This document shows, piece after piece, positions 7,791 through 15,679 of a DNA stretch of 64,000 bases. The position numbers were made by a program, and so were the translations under genes. This DNA comes from Xanthomonas sp. F10. GTDB lineage: Bacteria; Pseudomonadota; Gammaproteobacteria; Xanthomonadales; Xanthomonadaceae. The stretch lies in contig NZ_JACHNP010000001.1 in assembly GCF_014206815.1 (NCBI RefSeq), positions 2,384,456-2,448,455 of the forward strand. Direction: 5' to 3'. Each line of letters begins with the position of its first letter. The stretch's first letter is position 1. The notes under the pieces are model-generated. The model was given only the letters and a program-made list of their open reading frames with translations. It made no database searches and had not been told where the DNA came from.

Positions 7791-8552
7791 ATGGCCATCC
7801 ATTCCGACGCCAGCGACGACCTGCGGCTGTTCCAGACGGGCCAGCACGCGTGCGGCTACTGGCCCGAGCGGCAAGCCCGCGACCTGGTGCTGGACCCGCA
7901 CGACCCGCGCCTGGGCGCGCTGTATCCGCTGGCGTTGAGCTGGGGCTTCCGCCGCTCCGGCGACCTGGTCTATCGCCCGCACTGCGATCACTGCCGTGCC
8001 TGCGTGGCGGTGCGCATCCCGGTCGAGGACTTCGTACCCGATCGCAGCCAGCGCCGCTGCCTGGCGCGCAACGCCGATGTCGAGGTGCGCATCGTCGCCG
8101 CCGAACGCAGCGAGGAACAGCTGGCGCTGTACCAGCGCTACCTGCAGCATCGCCATCCCGGCGGCGGCATGGACGATCACGGCGCACACGAGTTCGACCA
8201 GTTCCTGATCGGCCGCTGGTCGCACGGGCGCTTCCTGGAACTGCGGCAACGCATGCCGGATGGAAGGCGTGGGCCGCTGCTGGCGGTGGCCGTCACCGAC
8301 ATCGCCGCGCAGGCGCTGTCGGCGGTCTACACCTTCTACGACCCGGACGCCGGCGCGCGCGGCCTGGGCACGCTGGCGATCCTGCAGCAGATCGCCTGGG
8401 CGCGACGCGACGGCCTGCGTCATCTGTATCTGGGCTACTGGATCCGCGGCCACCAGAAGATGGACTACAAGCGCCGCTTCCGGCCGTTGCAGGCCTACGA
8501 CGGCCGCCACTGGCGCGACTTCGACGACTACCTGCGCCAGCTCGGCGGCTAG
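7791..8552 (+). CDS. bpt: Aspartate/glutamate leucyltransferase (N-end rule, Bpt/Ate family)
   Basis: The 253-aa product has the two-part Ate/Bpt layout: an N-terminal domain with the cysteine motif [13 protein letters not shown] and the CDHCRAC cluster, and a C-terminal GNAT-like domain with [18 protein letters not shown] and [16 protein letters not shown]. Family members transfer Leu (Bpt) or Arg (Ate) from charged tRNA to N-terminal Asp or Glu of proteins, marking them for ClpS/ClpAP. The bacterial enzyme normally uses leucyl-tRNA, hence the Bpt call. The ATG at 7791 puts the conserved [11 protein letters not shown] near residue 15, as in the family. Confidence 0.92.
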
Positions 8553-8643
8553 CCCACGGCAACCGATACCGCGCTGCCCAGCCGCTGCCGCCGCACGTCG
8601 CCGCGCCATCGTGCGGACATGCAGCGCATGCGAAACTTGGCGC

Positions 8644-9876
8644 ATGACATCACGCCTCCTCCTGCTCGCCCTGACCCTGCTGTGCGGCGCCTGCGCGCAC
8701 ACCGCTCCCACCGCCCCTGCGATGACCGACGCCCCCGCGCCAGCCGCCACGACGCTGCGCTTGGCCACCTACAACACCTCGCTCAATGCCGACGCACCCG
8801 GCGGCCTGATCGCCGCGCTGCAGGGCGACAGTGCGCAGGCACGCAAGATCGCCGCGGTGCTGCAGCAGGTGCGACCTGACATCGTGCTGCTCAACGAGTT
8901 CGACTACGACGACGCGCACCGCGCCGCCGACCTGTTCGAACAGCGCTACCTGGCGGTACCGCAGCCGCATGGCGGTGCGGCGCTGCGCTATCCCTACCGC
9001 TACCTGGCGCCGGTCAATACCGGCGTGCCCAGCGGCCTGGACCTGGACAACGACGGCCACGTCGGCGGCGAAGGCCGTGCGCGCGGCAACGACGCCTGGG
9101 GTTTCGGCCTGCATCCCGGCCAGTACGGCATGCTGCTGCTGTCCAGGTACCCGATCGACACCGCGGCGGTGCGCAGCTTCCGCCTGTTCAAGTGGAGCGC
9201 GATGCCCGACGCGCTGCGCCCGGTCGATCCGGCCACCGGCCGCTTCTTCCACAGCGACGCGGTGTGGGCGCAACTGCGGCTGTCGTCGAAATCGCATTGG
9301 GACGTGCCGGTGCGTACCCCGCTGGGCGTGCTGCATGCGCTGGTGTCGCATCCGACCCCGCCGGTGTTCGATGGCGCGGAAAAACGCAACGCCGCACGCA
9401 ACCACGACGAACTGCGGCTGTGGCGCGATTACCTGGACGATGCCGGCAGCGGCAAGGCGCGCTGGCTGTGCGACGACGCCGGCCGCTGCGGCGGGCTGGC
9501 CGCCGATGCGCAGTTCGTGATGCTCGGCGACCTCAACAACGACGTGATCGACGGCGACGGCCGCCACGACGCGATCCGCGCCCTGGTGACGCATCCGCGC
9601 GTGCTGCAATACCCCACCCCGCACAGCGCCGGCGGCGAAGAGACCACCCGCGCCTACGCGGCCACCGGCATCGACCATCGCGGCCCGCCGCAGCAGGTCA
9701 CCGGCGATTTCGGCCCCAAGGCCGGCACCATGCGCCTGGATTACGTGTTGCCGTCGCGCAACTTCCGCTATCTGGACAGTGGCGTGTTCTGGCCGGCGTC
9801 CAGCGATCCCGCCGCCGCCATCGCCGACGGCAGCGACCACCATCTGGTCTGGGTCGACGTCGCCGCGGGACCGTAA
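8644..9876 (+). CDS. Endonuclease/exonuclease/phosphatase (EEP) family exported protein
   Basis: The 410-aa product has a hydrophobic N-terminus (LLLLALTLLCGACAHT) that could be a lipoprotein signal, though the lipobox is imperfect. The body has EEP-superfamily signatures: LATYNTSLN, LLNEFDYDD (metal-binding Glu), a GDLNNDVIDG block, DYVLPSRNF and the terminal SDHHLVWVD with the catalytic His. This fold cleaves phosphodiester or phosphomonoester bonds in nucleic acids, phospholipids or inositol phosphates. The substrate is unknown here, but export suggests an extracytoplasmic target. It ends in a strong terminator and starts 91 bp after bpt. Confidence 0.82.
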   Translation: MTSRLLLLALTLLCGACAHTAPTAPAMTDAPAPAATTLRLATYNTSLNADAPGGLIAALQGDSAQARKIAAVLQQVRPDIVLLNEFDYDDAHRAADLFEQRYLAVPQPHGGAALRYPYRYLAPVNTGVPSGLDLDNDGHVGGEGRARGNDAWGFGLHPGQYGMLLLSRYPIDTAAVRSFRLFKWSAMPDALRPVDPATGRFFHSDAVWAQLRLSSKSHWDVPVRTPLGVLHALVSHPTPPVFDGAEKRNAARNHDELRLWRDYLDDAGSGKARWLCDDAGRCGGLAADAQFVMLGDLNNDVIDGDGRHDAIRALVTHPRVLQYPTPHSAGGEETTRAYAATGIDHRGPPQQVTGDFGPKAGTMRLDYVLPSRNFRYLDSGVFWPASSDPAAAIADGSDHHLVWVDVAAGP

Positions 9877-9912
9877 GCGCGGCGCACCCCGCGGCGCTTG
9901 CAGCGCCCCACA

Positions 9913-9940
9913 GGCGGCCGATCGGCCGCCTTTTCTTTTT
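9913..9940 (+). terminator. Rho-independent terminator after the EEP gene
   Basis: The perfect palindrome GGCGGCCGATCGGCCGCC is followed at once by TTTTCTTTTT. It lies 36 bp after the stop of the EEP gene on the same strand. Confidence 0.93.
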
Positions 9941-10102
9941 GCCACACCAGCCGCCATGTCCCCAGGGGCTGGCTTGCCGCCAGTGCAACTGCATCGATCG
10001 CCTGGCCGAAGGCGCCACGGGCATGTGAACTACCCGACTTTCGGCAAACACCGGCGGACCAGGGCCGCGCCGCAGACGTTCCGCGCCGCGCGCCGGCATC
10101 GG

Positions 10103-10120
10103 CCTTGATCCAGATCAAGG
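10103..10120. promoter_or_regulatory. Perfect FNR/ANR-type box upstream of the roadblock operon
   Basis: The 18-bp palindrome CCTTGATCCAGATCAAGG contains TTGAT-N4-ATCAA, the consensus for FNR/ANR/DNR regulators that respond to low oxygen or nitric oxide. Its centre is about 76 bp before the roadblock start codon, compatible with a class II activator site near -41 if the transcript starts around 10150. Apart from the terminator above, this box is the only feature I see in the 311-bp gap 9877-10187. Confidence 0.7.
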
Positions 10121-10187
10121 GCAACACCGCGCCGACGCGGTCCAATGCCTTCCGCACCCGGTCGGGATGCGCAAGCGGAAGGCGAGC

Positions 10188-10550
10188 ATGCGAACGCAAC
10201 AGTTGCAACAGGCGCTGGAAGGCCTCAACGGCGCCACCGCCGACATCGAGGCCTCGGCGCTGATTTCCCTGGACGGGCTGATGATCGCCTCGGCGATGCC
10301 GCAGGGCATGGACGAGGACCGCGTCGGCGCGATGTCCGCGGCGCTGCTCGCGCTGGGCGAGCGCAGCGCGCGCGAACTGGCGCGCGGCGCGCTGGAGCGG
10401 GTGCTGATCCAGGGCGAGTCGGGCTACGTGATCATGAGTGCGGCCGGCCGCGAGGCGGTACTCACCGTGCTGGCCAAGCCCAGCGCCAGGCTGGGCCTGG
10501 TGTTCCTGGACATCAAGCGCGCCGCGCAGGCGCTGCAGCAGATCCTGTAG
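10188..10550 (+). CDS. Roadblock/LC7 (MglB-like) domain protein
   Basis: This 120-aa protein is essentially one roadblock/LC7 domain: an N-terminal helix (QLQQALEGLNG), a strand block ASALISLDGLMIAS, a long helix with ALLALGERSARELARG, and the strands RVLIQGESGYVIMSAAG and AVLTVLAKPSARLGLVFLD. Bacterial roadblock proteins usually form dimers and act on small Ras-like GTPases, as MglB does on MglA. No GTPase gene lies in this operon. The ATG at 10188 is chosen over 10167 because GGAAGG lies 5 bp upstream. It is the first gene of a tightly spaced five-gene operon behind an FNR-type box. Confidence 0.88.
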   Translation: MRTQQLQQALEGLNGATADIEASALISLDGLMIASAMPQGMDEDRVGAMSAALLALGERSARELARGALERVLIQGESGYVIMSAAGREAVLTVLAKPSARLGLVFLDIKRAAQALQQIL

Positions 10551-10559
10551 GGGGCCGCC

Positions 10560-11060
10560 ATGCCGCTGCCGCCGATGGATCCGCCGCACGAGCCGCACCG
10601 CAGCACCGAACTGCGCTACCACGACGGCAGCCGCCGCACGGTGTACTGGAGCGAACGCGAGGTGGCCTACCCGGACGGGCGCCTGATCGTTTCGCGCACC
10701 GACCTGGACGGCATCATCACCCACGCCAACGACGCCTTCGTCGAACTCAGCGGCTGGCCGCGCGAACTGCTGATCGGTGCGCCGCACTGCATCCTGCGCC
10801 ACCCGGAGATGCCGCGGCGCGCGTTCCGCGCGCTGTGGGAGACCGTGCTGGCCGGCGACAAGTGGCACGGCTACGTCAAGAACCTGCGCCGCGACGGCGC
10901 CTGCTACTGGGTCTACGCCACCGCGCTGCCGAACGTGCGCGACGGCCGCGTGGTCGGCTTCACCTCGGTGCGGCGCAAGCCGTCGCGGCGACGCATCGAC
11001 GCGCTGCAGCCGCTGTACGCGCAATGGCTGCAGGACGAGCGCGCGGAGACGCCGGCATGA
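10560..11060 (+). CDS. Single-PAS-domain protein (Aer-like PAS)
   Basis: The 166-aa protein has a PAS fold from about residue 40 to 145: LIVSRTDLDGIITHANDAFVELSGW, ELLIGAPHCILRHPEMPRRAF, KWHGYVKNLRRDGACYWVYAT and VVGFTSVRRKP. The HCILRHPEMP segment and the WxGxVKNxRxDGxxYWVxA run are typical of the PAS domains of Aer and related aerotaxis receptors, which bind FAD or heme and sense redox or oxygen. There is no output domain or membrane helix, so it must signal through partners. It starts 9 bp after the roadblock gene (GGGGG Shine-Dalgarno), and its stop overlaps the next start. Confidence 0.86.
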   Translation: MPLPPMDPPHEPHRSTELRYHDGSRRTVYWSEREVAYPDGRLIVSRTDLDGIITHANDAFVELSGWPRELLIGAPHCILRHPEMPRRAFRALWETVLAGDKWHGYVKNLRRDGACYWVYATALPNVRDGRVVGFTSVRRKPSRRRIDALQPLYAQWLQDERAETPA

Positions 11061-11812
11061 GCCATACCTTCCTGGTCGCGCCGGACTTCGCGCCCGAATA
11101 CTTCGGCGGCTGGTACCTGCTCAGCACGGTGTTGCAACGCCGTGCCGGCATCGGCCTGCGCCTGCTGATGCCGGCCGACGCCGCCGAACAGCGGCAAGTG
11201 CTGGACGGCGGCGGCGTCGACCTGGTGTACGCCAGCCCTTTCGACGCCAGCGCGCTGATCCGCCACCGCGGCTATCTGCCGCTGGTGCGGCCGCGCGGGC
11301 ACGCCGACGAGGTGGTGATCGCCACCGCGGCCGAGGCGCCGGCGCGCTGCGTGGAAGACCTGCCCTACGGGTGCCGCATCGCCCTGACCGCCAACCACGA
11401 CGTGCGCCTGATCGGCCTGCGCCTGCTGGAGCCGGCCGACCTGGAGCCGGAACGCATCGCCTGGCGTCCGGCCAGCAGCTATGCCGCGGTCGCGCGGCTG
11501 CTGCTCGAAGGCGAAGCCGACGCCGGCCTGTTCCTGGCCACTGCCTACCACGGCCTGTCGCGGCTGACCCGCGCGCGGCTGCGCCCGCTGGTGGAAAGCG
11601 CGCTGTGCGACATCGGCCACGTGCTGTTGGCGCATCCGCGCCTGGGCCCGCAACTGCCGGTGCTGCGCGAGGCCCTGCTCACGCTCGGCGATGCCGCGCA
11701 CCGCGACGACCAGGCGGTGCTGGACGCGCTGGGCCTGGAACGCGGCTTCGAGGCGATGGCCATGGAGGACGCGGAATTCATGATCGACCTGATCGACACC
11801 CTGCTGGACTGA
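11057..11812 (+). CDS. PhnD-like substrate-binding domain protein, apparently cytoplasmic
   Basis: The 251-aa protein resembles the PhnD family of phosphate/phosphonate-binding proteins: FLVAPDFAPEYFGGWYLLSTVLQ, then VDLVYASPFDASALIRHRGYLPLVRP, CRIALTANHDV and YAAVARLLLEGEADAGLF. Such proteins normally have a signal peptide and feed an ABC transporter. Here there is no signal peptide and no permease or ATPase nearby. A soluble ligand-sensing role beside the PAS and roadblock proteins is the more natural reading, though this is inference. The ATG overlaps the PAS stop by 4 bp. Confidence 0.72.
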   Translation: MSHTFLVAPDFAPEYFGGWYLLSTVLQRRAGIGLRLLMPADAAEQRQVLDGGGVDLVYASPFDASALIRHRGYLPLVRPRGHADEVVIATAAEAPARCVEDLPYGCRIALTANHDVRLIGLRLLEPADLEPERIAWRPASSYAAVARLLLEGEADAGLFLATAYHGLSRLTRARLRPLVESALCDIGHVLLAHPRLGPQLPVLREALLTLGDAAHRDDQAVLDALGLERGFEAMAMEDAEFMIDLIDTLLD

Positions 11813-11819
11813 GGCGCCC

Positions 11820-12461
11820 ATGGCCACCACTCCCGCTCGCGATCCCGCACGCCTGGTGATGCGTACCCATGCCCGCGCCCTGCTGCGCGATCCGCGCGAC
11901 GCCGCCGCGCACCTGGCGCGGCTGCACGCCGCGCTGCAGTTGCACGACAACGAACCGACCCAGGGCGTGCTCGCCGACCTGTTCGTGGCCCTGCCGCGGC
12001 ACGACGTCGCCCTGCGCCAGCTGGCGCTGCAGATGGCCGCGGCGCATCTGCCGCCGCACGTGGCCGAGGCCTTCCAGCGCCACAGCCAGGGGCATGCGCT
12101 GCTGCCGATCAACGCCCTGGCCACGCGCTGGAGCGTACTGGCGCGCCCGTCGGCCGACGTGCCGGCGCGGGTGCGCCGGGCCAGCCCGGACCATTCTCGG
12201 CGGATGGTGCGCGAAGTGGTGGAGGCGCTGTGCGACGGCGCGCCGATCGCCGCGGCGCGCTGCGAGCGCGAGTTCCTGGACTACTGCATCAGTTGCCAGG
12301 ACAAGCTCGCCTTCATGCTCGCCACGCGCGAACTGCGCCGCCACGCACTGGCCCTGGGCGACCGCTGGGACCGTACCGCGCGCTGGCTGCAACAGCGCGA
12401 ACCGTTGGGCGGCCGCAGCGTCGACGCCCTGTCCTTTTCCAGCGCGAGTGCGCCGCGATGA
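11820..12461 (+). CDS. Conserved hypothetical, all-helical, roadblock operon
   Basis: I do not recognise the family of this 213-aa protein. It appears almost entirely alpha-helical, with repeated helix-like segments (AHLARLHAALQLHDNE, VALRQLALQMAAAHL, RRMVREVVEALCDG). It carries a short CISC cysteine pair near residue 162 that could bind a metal or form a disulphide. No signal peptide or membrane helix is seen. It sits 7 bp after the PhnD-like gene and overlaps the next start, so a role in the same module is very likely. Confidence 0.7.
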   Translation: MATTPARDPARLVMRTHARALLRDPRDAAAHLARLHAALQLHDNEPTQGVLADLFVALPRHDVALRQLALQMAAAHLPPHVAEAFQRHSQGHALLPINALATRWSVLARPSADVPARVRRASPDHSRRMVREVVEALCDGAPIAAARCEREFLDYCISCQDKLAFMLATRELRRHALALGDRWDRTARWLQQREPLGGRSVDALSFSSASAPR

Positions 12462-13093
12462 CTGCCCCCGAACCGACCAGTTCCGAACCGACTTGGCTGA
12501 TGCCGACCCCGCATGGCGTGCTGCACGGCTTCGCCAGCGCCACGCCCGACCGCATGCAGCGCGCGTTGCAACTGCTGCTCGGTGCGCACGGTGCGTTGTC
12601 GCTGCAGGAATGGCGCCAGCGCGTGGGCGGCGACGCGCAGCGCCTGCTGCAGGACGCGCGCGACCAGCAATGGGTGCAGTTACTGCGGCGCGCCGTGCCG
12701 GGCCCGGAAATCCGCCTGGACGATTTCGCCCAGCACGTGATCGCGCCGCTGTCGGCCGAACGCCGCGCGGTGCTGGCCTCCGACAGCGGCTTCTGCCTGG
12801 GCCATGCCGGCCTGGACCAGGAGCAGGCCGAGACGCTGAGCGTGGCCGCGGCCGACTTCGCCGGCTTCGCCCAGCGCCAGAGCGCACGCGGCTGGCACGG
12901 CGCGCACCGCTACGTGGCGTTCTACAGCGAGCCGCAACTGCTGCTGCCGGACTGGTCGTTCGTGCCGTTCTGGGTCGACGGCGCCGGCTACTGGCTGGTG
13001 CTGGGCGGCGAGGCGCTGCTCAACAACCTGGCGATGGTGGAACTGGTGTGGAGCATCCGGCTGGCGGCGGCACGGTTTGCGCCGCCGGCCTGA
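12458..13093 (+). CDS. Hypothetical protein with possible C-terminal roadblock-like fold
   Basis: The 211-aa protein begins with a helical segment that could be a winged-helix or DprA-type fold (ALQLLLGAHGALSLQEWRQR, about residues 35-55). From about residue 105, the stretch RAVLASDSGFCLGHAGLD followed by a long alanine-rich helix resembles the strand-helix core of a roadblock/LC7 domain. It continues through RYVAFYSEPQLLL and YWLVLGGEALLNNLAMVELVW. If correct, the operon encodes two roadblock-type proteins. This is fold reading by eye and needs structural confirmation. The start overlaps the preceding stop (ATGA), and the operon ends at a bidirectional terminator. Confidence 0.68.
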   Translation: MTAPEPTSSEPTWLMPTPHGVLHGFASATPDRMQRALQLLLGAHGALSLQEWRQRVGGDAQRLLQDARDQQWVQLLRRAVPGPEIRLDDFAQHVIAPLSAERRAVLASDSGFCLGHAGLDQEQAETLSVAAADFAGFAQRQSARGWHGAHRYVAFYSEPQLLLPDWSFVPFWVDGAGYWLVLGGEALLNNLAMVELVWSIRLAAARFAPPA

Positions 13094-13099
13094 GCGGCC

Positions 13100-13117
13100 G
13101 GGATTGGGGATTCGGGA
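13100..13117 (+). repeat. Short GGGATT-type heptamer repeat
   Basis: The run GGGATTGGGGATTCGGGA is a short version of the heptameric repeat blocks at 16318-16346 and 16541-16607. It lies directly after the last gene of the roadblock operon. Confidence 0.7.
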
Positions 13118-13127
13118 GCGGGGATGA

Positions 13128-13157
13128 AAAAGCGGGCTTGTCTTGCGGCCCGCTTTT
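13128..13157. terminator. Bidirectional terminator between the roadblock operon and purT
   Basis: AAAAGCGGGC and GCCCGCTTTT form a 10-bp stem around a 10-nt loop, with A and T runs on both sides. It can end transcription from both convergent units. Confidence 0.88.
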
Positions 13158-13172
13158 CCCGTGCGCGAAGTT

Positions 13173-14360
13173 TCAGGCATCGAGGTCGATGGTGAGGGCG
13201 GCAGCGGCGTCGCGGGCGGTCTGGCGCGCCTGTTCGATGTCGGCGCCGCGGGCCAGGGTCACGCCGACGCGGCGGTGGCCGTGCACGCTGGGCTTGCCGA
13301 ACAGGCGCAACGCGGTGTCCGGCGCCTGCAGGGCGGCGTCGACGTTGCCGAAGCGCGGCACGCCTTCGCCGTGCGCCAGCAGCGCGCACGAGGCCGACGG
13401 GCCGTTCTGGCGGATGGCGGGAATCGGCAGGCCGAGGATCGCGCGCGCATGCAGGGCGAACTCGCTCAGTTCCTGCGACACCAGGGTGACCAGGCCGGTG
13501 TCGTGCGGCCGCGGCGACACTTCGCTGAACCAGACCTCGTCGCCCTTGACGAACAGCTCCACGCCGAACAAACCCCAGCCGCCGAGATCGTCGGTGACCG
13601 CGCGGGCGATGTCCTGCGCCCGCTGCAGGGCCAGCGCCGACATCGGCTGCGGCTGCCAGCTCTCGCGGTAGTCGCCGTCCTTCTGCCAGTGCCCGATCGG
13701 ATCGCAGAACGCGGTGCCGCCGGCGTGGCGCACGGTCAGCAGGGTGATCTCGTAGTCGAAGTCGATGAAGCCCTCGACGATGCAGCGGCCGGCGCCGGCG
13801 CGGCCGCCGGTCTGCGCGTACTCCCAGGCCGCATCGATGTCGGCGGCGCTGCGCAGGGTGCTCTGGCCCTTGCCGGAGGACGACATCACCGGCTTGACCA
13901 CGCACGGCAGGCCCACCGCGGCGATCGCTTCGCGGTATTCCTCTGGCGTATCGACGAAGCGATACGGCGAAGTCGGCAGGCCCAGGGTCTCGGCGGCCAG
14001 GCGGCGGATGCCTTCGCGGTCCATGGTCAGCCGCGCCGCGCGCGCGGTCGGAATCACCCGCTGGCCGAGGTCGCGCTCCAGCGCCACCAGGGTTTCGGTA
14101 TGGATCGCCTCGATCTCCGGCACGATCAGGTGCGGCTGCTCGCGCGCGATCAGCTCGCGCAGCGCCATCGCATCGAGCATGTCGACCACGTGGCTGCGGT
14201 GCGCGACCTGCATCGCCGGCGCATCGGCGTAACGGTCGACCGCGATCACTTCCACGCCGAAGCGCTGCAGTTCGATCGCCACCTCCTTGCCCAGCTCGCC
14301 GGAGCCGAGCAGCAGCACGCGGGTGGCGGAAGCGGACAACGGGGTTCCCAGAGTGACCAT
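13173..14360 (-). CDS. purT: Formate-dependent phosphoribosylglycinamide formyltransferase
   Basis: The 395-aa ATP-grasp enzyme makes formyl-GAR from GAR, formate and ATP in purine synthesis, the folate-independent alternative to PurN. The start at 14360 gives [26 protein letters not shown], matching the E. coli N-terminus; the frame's upstream extension of 45 residues has no family counterpart. Other landmarks are [58 protein letters not shown] and [12 protein letters not shown]. It stands alone between a terminator and a divergent Rieske gene, whose start lies 167 bp away. Confidence 0.97.
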
Positions 14361-14527
14361 GGCGGCGGCGCCTGCGCGGAGAGGGGGCACCATTCTAACG
14401 GCCCGGCGCTCCTCGCCGGCACGCAGCGAAGTGCTATCTTCTGCAGCGTCACTGGGGATGTCGCCATGCACGCACGCAGCGCCGAAAACCGCCACGGCAC
14501 GCCCTGCCGCACCGCCGGGGAGTGCCC

Positions 14528-15679
14528 ATGCAATCGCTGATGCCGGCCGAGGCGTACATCGACGAGGCCTGGTTCGCCCGCGAACGTACCCAGCTGATGA
14601 TGCCGCTGTGGCAGTTCGTGGCGCCGCGCATGCTGCTGGACAAGCCCAACGCCTTCGTGCGCCTCTCGGTGTGCGGGGTGGATGTGGTGGTGCAGAACAT
14701 CGACGGCGAACTGCGCGCCTTCGACAATCTGTGCCTGCACCGGCAGAACCCGCTGCAGCAACAACCGCAGGGCGTGCGCCCGCTGGTGTGCAGCTACCAC
14801 GGCTGGCGCTACGGCGCCGACGGCGGCGTGGACAACATCCCCTTCCAGGACGATGCCTACCGCCTGGCCCCGGAGGCGCGCGCCTGCCTGCGGCTGCGCC
14901 GCTTCGCGGTGGCCTGCATCGGCAAGCTGGTGTTCGTGAACCTGTCGGCCGCGCCGATGCCGCTGGAGGCCCAGTTCTCGCTGGAGGCGCTGGAAATGCT
15001 GCGCGCCGCCTCCGAGCAGTTCGACGACGAAGTGCTGGTGGCGACCTTCGAGGCCAACTTCAACTGGAAGCTGGCCTACGAGAACCTGCGCGACGCGCTG
15101 CATCCGCGCTTCGTGCATGCACGCACCTTGGCGCAGCAGGTCAAGTTCCAGGTGCAGATGGACGATGCCGGCATCGCCGAGGCGCGCCGCTACCACGCCG
15201 AGGGCAGCGCCTCGCGCGAGGCGCACCTGGCGCGCCTGCGTGAGTTCAGCAGCGGCGGGCTCAACGAGCCGCTGCTGGCGATGGCGCACTACCCCTGGCA
15301 CGCGCACGTCGAACGCTTCGGCACCGACGACTGGTATCTGAACTGGCTGCTGTACCCGAACCTGCACATCGCCTCGGGCTCGGGTGGCTATTCCTTCATC
15401 ATCGAGCACCACCAGCCGGTGTCGGCGCAGCGCACCGACCTGCTGGTCTACTACGTCACCGCACGCAAGAAGCATCGCTATCCGGGTTCCGACGCGGTGC
15501 TGCTGGGGCATCTGCACGGCGCCGAGAAGGTGCTGCGCGAGGACATCGACATCATGGAACAGGTGCAGTCGGGACTGCGCGCCGGCGCCCCGCGCGCCGT
15601 GCTGGGCGACTACGAGCACGCCAACATGCAGATCGAACGCTGGTACATGGACGTCATGGAGGGCCGCCATGTCCTCTGA
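14528..15679 (+). CDS. Rieske non-heme iron oxygenase, alpha-subunit-like
   Basis: The 383-aa protein has the Rieske [2Fe-2S] motif CLHRQN ... CSYHGW (C-x-H and C-x2-H, about residues 75-98). In the C-terminal half is the mononuclear iron site [13 protein letters not shown], carrying the bridging Asp and the H-x4-H pair of ring-hydroxylating oxygenases. The substrate is unknown, and no ferredoxin or reductase gene is adjacent. The ATG at 14528 is preferred over the GTG at 14522 because GGGGAG sits 5 bp upstream. Its end overlaps the next gene by 11 bp, implying co-translation with the beta-helix protein. Confidence 0.9.

Follow-up and report, generated by a model that had tools for sequence, protein, structure and literature searches.

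A Xanthomonas roadblock operon with a conserved FNR box: a probable offshoot of the Group 3 MglA/MglB systems that has lost the GTPase

In a 64,000-nucleotide stretch of the Xanthomonas sp. F10 genome (the window), positions 10103..13093 of the forward strand hold an operon of five densely packed genes, here called A to E, which lie 3' of an FNR-type box and encode two MglB-like roadblock proteins (A and E), a PAS protein (B), a PhnD-like binding protein (C) and an all-helical protein (D). The operon is very probably derived from a Group 3 MglA/MglB system from which two genes have gone, one for a Ras-like GTPase (G) and one for a protein that we call X. We favour, with somewhat better than even confidence, the reading that this GTPase-less derivative forms an FNR-induced cytosolic roadblock complex that senses redox state or a ligand and works without a GTPase. 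What the sequences themselves establish is the homology, the gene order, the absence of G, the conserved FNR box and the purifying selection. The first-pass annotation had proposed a candidate new sensory module; a precedent exists, since the operon appears to be a pared-down member of a family already published, and the new part is the GTPase-less form with its PAS protein, PhnD-like protein and FNR box, of which we found no account in the open-licence literature.

The parent group was described by Wuichet and Sogaard-Andersen in 2014. In the sections covered, Group 3 consists of an unknown protein, a homologue of MglA and one or two of MglB, the unknown protein being a receiver-like domain with a winged helix by Phyre2, and its hosts are beta- and gammaproteobacteria that include Xanthomonas and Stenotrophomonas (PMC4316618). 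The same paper reports 328 MglB homologues uncoupled to an MglA, and orphan roadblock genes as such are therefore known (PMC4316618). A profile search with E over 369 genomes of the class matched 24, our own included, and among the 25 loci around the matches in the other 23 genomes G stands beside E in 17 and is missing from 8. G encodes a Ras-like GTPase of about 180 amino acids that matches ATP_bind_1 (2e-12) and Ras (2e-5); it follows X (about 400 amino acids, with no Pfam family above cut-off), while D usually stands before and A after. Loci with the GTPase often have B and C as well. All 15 aligned rows of G contain GTPGQ together with DAR or DGR, and because these are listed marks of Group 3 MglA we assign G to that group. 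We take E and A to be the two MglB-like proteins of a system with one MglA and two MglB proteins. The window holds the two MglB homologues and lacks an MglA-type GTPase with GTPGQ and DAR; an X profile gave no match at positions 8001-15000, the rest of the genome not having been searched for X. A Ras-like GTPase gene, suggested earlier as a co-occurring gene to look for, is found between D and E in many relatives.

A wider view came from scanning an alignment of A across 84,980 species, which gave at least 542 relatives, of which the best 80 by similarity to A were kept. In the 105 loci outside the genus set the arrangements are A-B-C-D-E (32), D-X-G-E-A (13), A-B-C-D-X-G-E (13), A-B-C-D-X-E (11), D-X-G-E-A-B-C (7) and smaller classes (29); these counts are biased, as the named loci are the best 80 of at least 542 and records near the window may be missing. 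By domain content, 119 loci (the window and 13 relatives included) comprise 51 with ABCDE, 25 with all seven genes, 14 with ADEXG, 12 with ABCDEX and 17 others. The arrangement D-X-G-E-A-B-C occurs in six of the 25 loci of the class search and in L192 (loci and genomes carry our own L and G numbers). The Xanthomonadaceae copies read have the order A-B-C-D-E, with X and G gone. Other GTPase-less arrangements are X-A-D-E (L078, L082, L086) and D-X-E-A (L080, L088), and genomes G302 and G405 have both X-A-D-E and D-X-G-E-A-B-C forms.

The loss of G was followed within and beyond the genus. No Group-3-like GTPase was found in the operon itself, in 19 of 19 genus genomes or in G019, a member of another genus, by a search that found such a gene in 36 of 120 relatives. 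Within the own genome, all matches to PF00071 lie in frames of 471 amino acids or more, and PF03029 has no match above cut-off. Eighteen of the 120 relatives carry A at E <1e-50, and 14 of these lack G (13 of the genus, our own included, and G019); G is present in G064, G066, G084 and G476, in the last of which G and A are on different contigs. Ten loci around G from the same family include four with X, G and a distant A and none with B, C or D, which fits separate systems with one MglA and one MglB.

On a tree of A, B and C with 61 rows, the presence of G needs at least five changes; two doubtful rows, L123 (whose contig ends inside the module) and L144, were dropped from a second tree of 59 rows, which still needs five, and three of these are forced by well-supported branches. 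The trees are quick ones with support only from the Shimodaira-Hasegawa-like approximate likelihood-ratio test, and they omit rows lacking any of A, B and C as well as 31 near-duplicates, 22 of Psychrobacter type and 9 from the genus. Among loci of Rhodoferax/Polaromonas type that have X and lack G, X stops at profile position 291-304 of 406 in 12 of 12, so that its C-terminal quarter is gone, while most other X proteins reach about 400; in L182, which has G, the match to X ends at 328. L119 has a short X yet retains G, as an intermediate would. These patterns suggest several losses of G.

Across 41 GTPase-bearing loci, 56 positions of A are at least 90% constant, and 43 of them, D29 and G30 included, show no change in any of the 20 Lysobacteraceae, 13 Rhodoferax-type and 29 Psychrobacter rows. 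This comparison took three GTPase-less groups; L183, L173, L180, L144, L123, truncated loci and the X-A-D-E loci lie outside it. Between the window and the non-Lysobacteraceae loci of the class search, A is 58-65% identical (15 loci) and E 23-29% (17 loci), so E is far more divergent than A at the level of sequence. Judged from these rows, G is apparently not the sole source of the constraint on A, though in Psychrobacter a GTPase encoded elsewhere could supply it.

The retained positions would also suit a roadblock pair that regulates another P-loop GTPase or ATPase in trans, the module then still being an MglB-type GTPase regulator. We think this unlikely, while giving it real weight: the aspartate of D29-G30 has been placed near MglA in the sections covered of the Group 3 account (PMC4316618), and 9 of 17 other genomes with a G-less module encode a related GTPase elsewhere (all six Psychrobacter tested, L173, L180 and L183). 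The other eight (L115, L117, L118, L124, L128, L139, L178, L193) gave no such gene in a search that recovered 7 of 7 GTPase-bearing controls, several of the hosts, some of these eight among them, being incomplete metagenome-assembled genomes. Together with the negative searches in the genus and G019, and the confinement of the own-genome matches to long frames, these eight speak against regulation in trans; an unrelated NTPase is a possible partner.

Decay can be judged within the genus. Fifteen of 100 genomes gave a match to D, our own included: 13 of the 19 of the genus, G019, and G099, whose match is weak (2e-4) and has internal stops. C is present in 14 of the 20 genus genomes, counting our own. 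The 13 loci fetched (12 from the genus, and G019) all have the five genes in the same order, with a near full-length match for every gene. The ratio of nonsynonymous to synonymous substitution rates (dN/dS) of the five genes against six genus copies is 0 to 0.37, by pairwise simple counting on GC-rich genes, and at this level all five genes are under purifying selection and the operon is not a relic. A functionless, decaying remnant of a GTPase system would explain why two core genes are gone and why six of the 20 genus genomes lack the operon. It is very improbable given this selection, the intact genes, a conserved promoter and the small change in A over several families.

The FNR-type box (10103..10120, no strand assigned) has its core TTGATCCAGATCAA at 10105-10118, exact in the window and in all 13 fetched relatives. 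Both the five-gene order and the box of the first-pass annotation are thereby borne out in relatives having the operon; the order is conserved among the Xanthomonadaceae read, but it differs in more distant taxa. The distance from box to the ATG of A is 83 bases in 13 of 14 loci, the window included, and 82 in the other, and a -10-like TCCAAT (10141..10146, + strand) begins 29.5 bases past the box centre in all 14. Box and TCCAAT contrast with the sequence 5' of the box, which is poorly conserved. By the spacing rule for class II activator sites, the box would have class II geometry, its centre lying at about -41.5 relative to a predicted start near 10153. A box with at most one mismatch lies 55-125 bases before A in 14 of 14 genus and G019 loci and in 6 of 7 other Lysobacteraceae; against 0.65% of 6,960 random 70-base windows, these 20 of 21 loci led us to reject a chance box.

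Exact boxes number four in the 4.78 Mb of the own genome, where base composition predicts 0.16. Of the remaining three, one is found between hemN and ccoG, one at cydA and one between gapA and ompW, the matches to ccoG, cydA and ompW being below curated cut-offs and those of ccoG and cydA cut by the locus end. The exact box of the gapA/ompW-like intergenic region is in locus L033 of the window's genome, and L030 has, between hemN and another exact box, a short globin-like frame, seen by eye and without an NCBIfam match. The best CRP/FNR-family protein of the own genome (L034) matches FnrL, FixK and Fnr models, all below curated cut-offs, and has CxxCx7C, one more central Cys and an ETVSR helix, features which we take to be significant for an FnrL-like protein. 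With a box at class II distance, an FNR homologue and exact boxes that mark a small group of low-oxygen genes, the earlier suggestion of FNR control is plausible, and the operon is quite likely to be controlled by FNR, that is, induced at low oxygen. On FNR in these bacteria the open-licence literature gave us nothing of use.

Several observations weigh against the reading that we favour. Thirteen of the 56 constant positions of A differ in some GTPase-less rows, among them 15, 28, 34, 37, 55, 58 and 69. A, C and D are absent from six genus members (G001, G002, G008, G009, G016, G017), so the operon is missing from 6 of 20 genus genomes, and dN/dS against G019 is higher, at 0.20 to 0.55. Because 9 of 17 genomes encode a related GTPase elsewhere, independence from a GTPase is not general, and a gain of G by transfer is a possible account of individual rows such as L119 and L129. 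In Psychrobacter, 5 of 29 loci have the box with at most one mismatch before A; among other loci that start with A, 5 of 23 GTPase-less ones and 3 of 19 GTPase-bearing ones have it, and among 24 where A is not first none does. For loci that start with D or X, the more telling stretch is the one preceding the first gene rather than A, and its nearest 350 bases contain such a box in 1 of 28 (control, 76 of 2,100 random 350-base windows). Since the box is rare in Psychrobacter, in the other GTPase-less A-first loci and in those starting with D or X, FNR control is not general either; on these counts it characterises Lysobacteraceae and some of the Comamonadaceae.

Open reading frames (ORFs) were called mechanically, and all five genes lie on the + strand. 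A (10188..10550, 120 amino acids) has a roadblock/LC7 domain of MglB type. B (10560..11060, 166 amino acids) is a single PAS domain whose closest relative among solved structures is the Aer PAS (8dik, 4e-33); its highest 19-residue hydropathy is 0.65 and only PAS models rise above cut-off, so the membrane segment and the signalling, methyl-accepting part of Aer are absent. C (11057..11812, 251 amino acids) matches the Phosphonate-bd domain (1e-29) from residue 5, with no signal peptide and no adjoining genes for ATP-binding cassette (ABC) partners, the operon being flanked by a gene for an Exo_endo_phos protein and by PurT; by sequence, no solved structure is a relative of C at 1e-3. D (11820..12461, 213 amino acids) has no fold match, and two of its homologues from other loci match TPR models weakly, below cut-off. 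E (12458..13093, 211 amino acids), whose frame overlaps that of D, has a small N-terminal domain at about residues 12-76 and a roadblock fold at about 84-206, and Robl_LC7 is matched weakly, below cut-off, by two of its homologues from loci that have the GTPase. D and E are fused as one protein in two loci (L073:6191-7618; L074:3745-5181), which supports contact between them; the contigs are short, one stopping soon after E, and A was not seen on them. The Aer-type PAS, the missing signal peptide of C and the suspected second roadblock fold had all been called correctly from the first reading.

The kinship of B with Aer raises the possibility that the operon is a cytosolic redox input to chemotaxis or aerotaxis receptors, with B a detached Aer PAS domain. 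We regard this as improbable, as no chemotaxis gene, which the earlier note had advised looking for, was recognised by eye among the recurrent neighbour clusters listed, and as the module is present in Psychrobacter and Moraxella, which are non-flagellated genera. Around the Xanthomonas copies, recurrent neighbours point to nothing beyond local gene context. A PAS-PhnD fusion hinted at by the ORF table was rejected on domain checking, in which the two domains never shared an ORF and the apparent joins were out-of-frame extensions. A link to phage or defence was likewise rejected: D and E had no PHROGs match, C had no phage match, and the five window proteins had no PADLOC match.

Other features were seen around the relatives. 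In L085:5033-6619 the module GTPase and a Ser/Thr protein kinase domain share a single open frame, and in Thiothrix-type loci a bactofilin gene (L192:4633-4992) and an OmpA-family gene (L192:11909-12646) recur near the module. On a Sphaerotilus plasmid (L046:7410-8735), a protein next to a SpoIIE phosphatase is PhnD-like in its C-terminal half and, judged by eye, STAS-like in its N-terminal half; this is another cytosolic use of the PhnD-like domain.

The operon can be set beside several known systems. B shares its PAS domain with the Aer receptor and C its Phosphonate-bd domain with PhnD, while the membrane segment and signalling domain of the one, and the signal peptide and ABC partners of the other, are missing. 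Myxococcus MglC is said to be an MglB paralogue without GTPase-activating activity that acts via protein contacts; unlike the window's roadblock proteins, it reportedly works beside MglA and MglB. Group 3 systems share with the window two MglB-like roadblock proteins and a home in beta- and gammaproteobacteria, and loci homologous to the window's carry the two-part unknown protein and the MglA homologue of that group (PMC4316618). The window differs in lacking both and in having an FNR box, and the Group 3 account, in the sections covered, makes no mention of PAS, PhnD-like or helical proteins (PMC4316618). The actinobacterial conservons CvnA-D also have a roadblock protein in a sensory operon, with a histidine kinase and a GTPase that the window operon lacks (PMC4316618). 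In Snodgrassella, according to the parts covered of that study, the group 3 mgl locus has an orphan mglB-3 (121 amino acids) apart from mglA, which, unlike in the window, the genome retains, and a Gly-to-Arg change in it (nucleotide 235) was accompanied by altered soft-agar spreading and improved competition in a non-native gut (PMC11112851). By its numbering, with the sequences unaligned, the changed Gly may be the invariant G79 of A.

Under the reading that we favour, low oxygen would lead an FnrL-like protein to activate the operon from the class II site, A and E would assemble, together with the helical protein D, into a roadblock hetero-oligomer, B would report redox state through flavin adenine dinucleotide, and C would bind a small, probably anionic, ligand in the cytosol. 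The cytosolic complex could then act on its target with no need for the lost GTPase, although from sequence we rate a GTPase-free function as an even call. Type IV pili or cell polarity would be the best, though tentative, guess at the output, by analogy, because the characterised MglA/MglB systems control these; the altered soft-agar spreading in Snodgrassella, the one group 3 case, is a further ground for it.

The puzzle of roadblock proteins without a GTPase is largely answered by loss from Group 3 modules. It is conceivable, if slightly more doubtful than not, that roadblock proteins have been freed from the GTPase in several lineages with A little changed, what remains in Lysobacteraceae being an FNR-induced cytosolic complex that senses redox state and a ligand and has a GTPase-free output, a bacterial counterpart of roadblock scaffolds such as Ragulator. 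The family offers a natural experiment, in which the same roadblock proteins occur with and without the GTPase in related bacteria, and this makes roles of roadblock/MglB proteins apart from GTPase activation testable. It also ties a little-studied group of GTPases to Aer-type PAS and cytosolic PhnD-like partners and, in one family, to control by oxygen.

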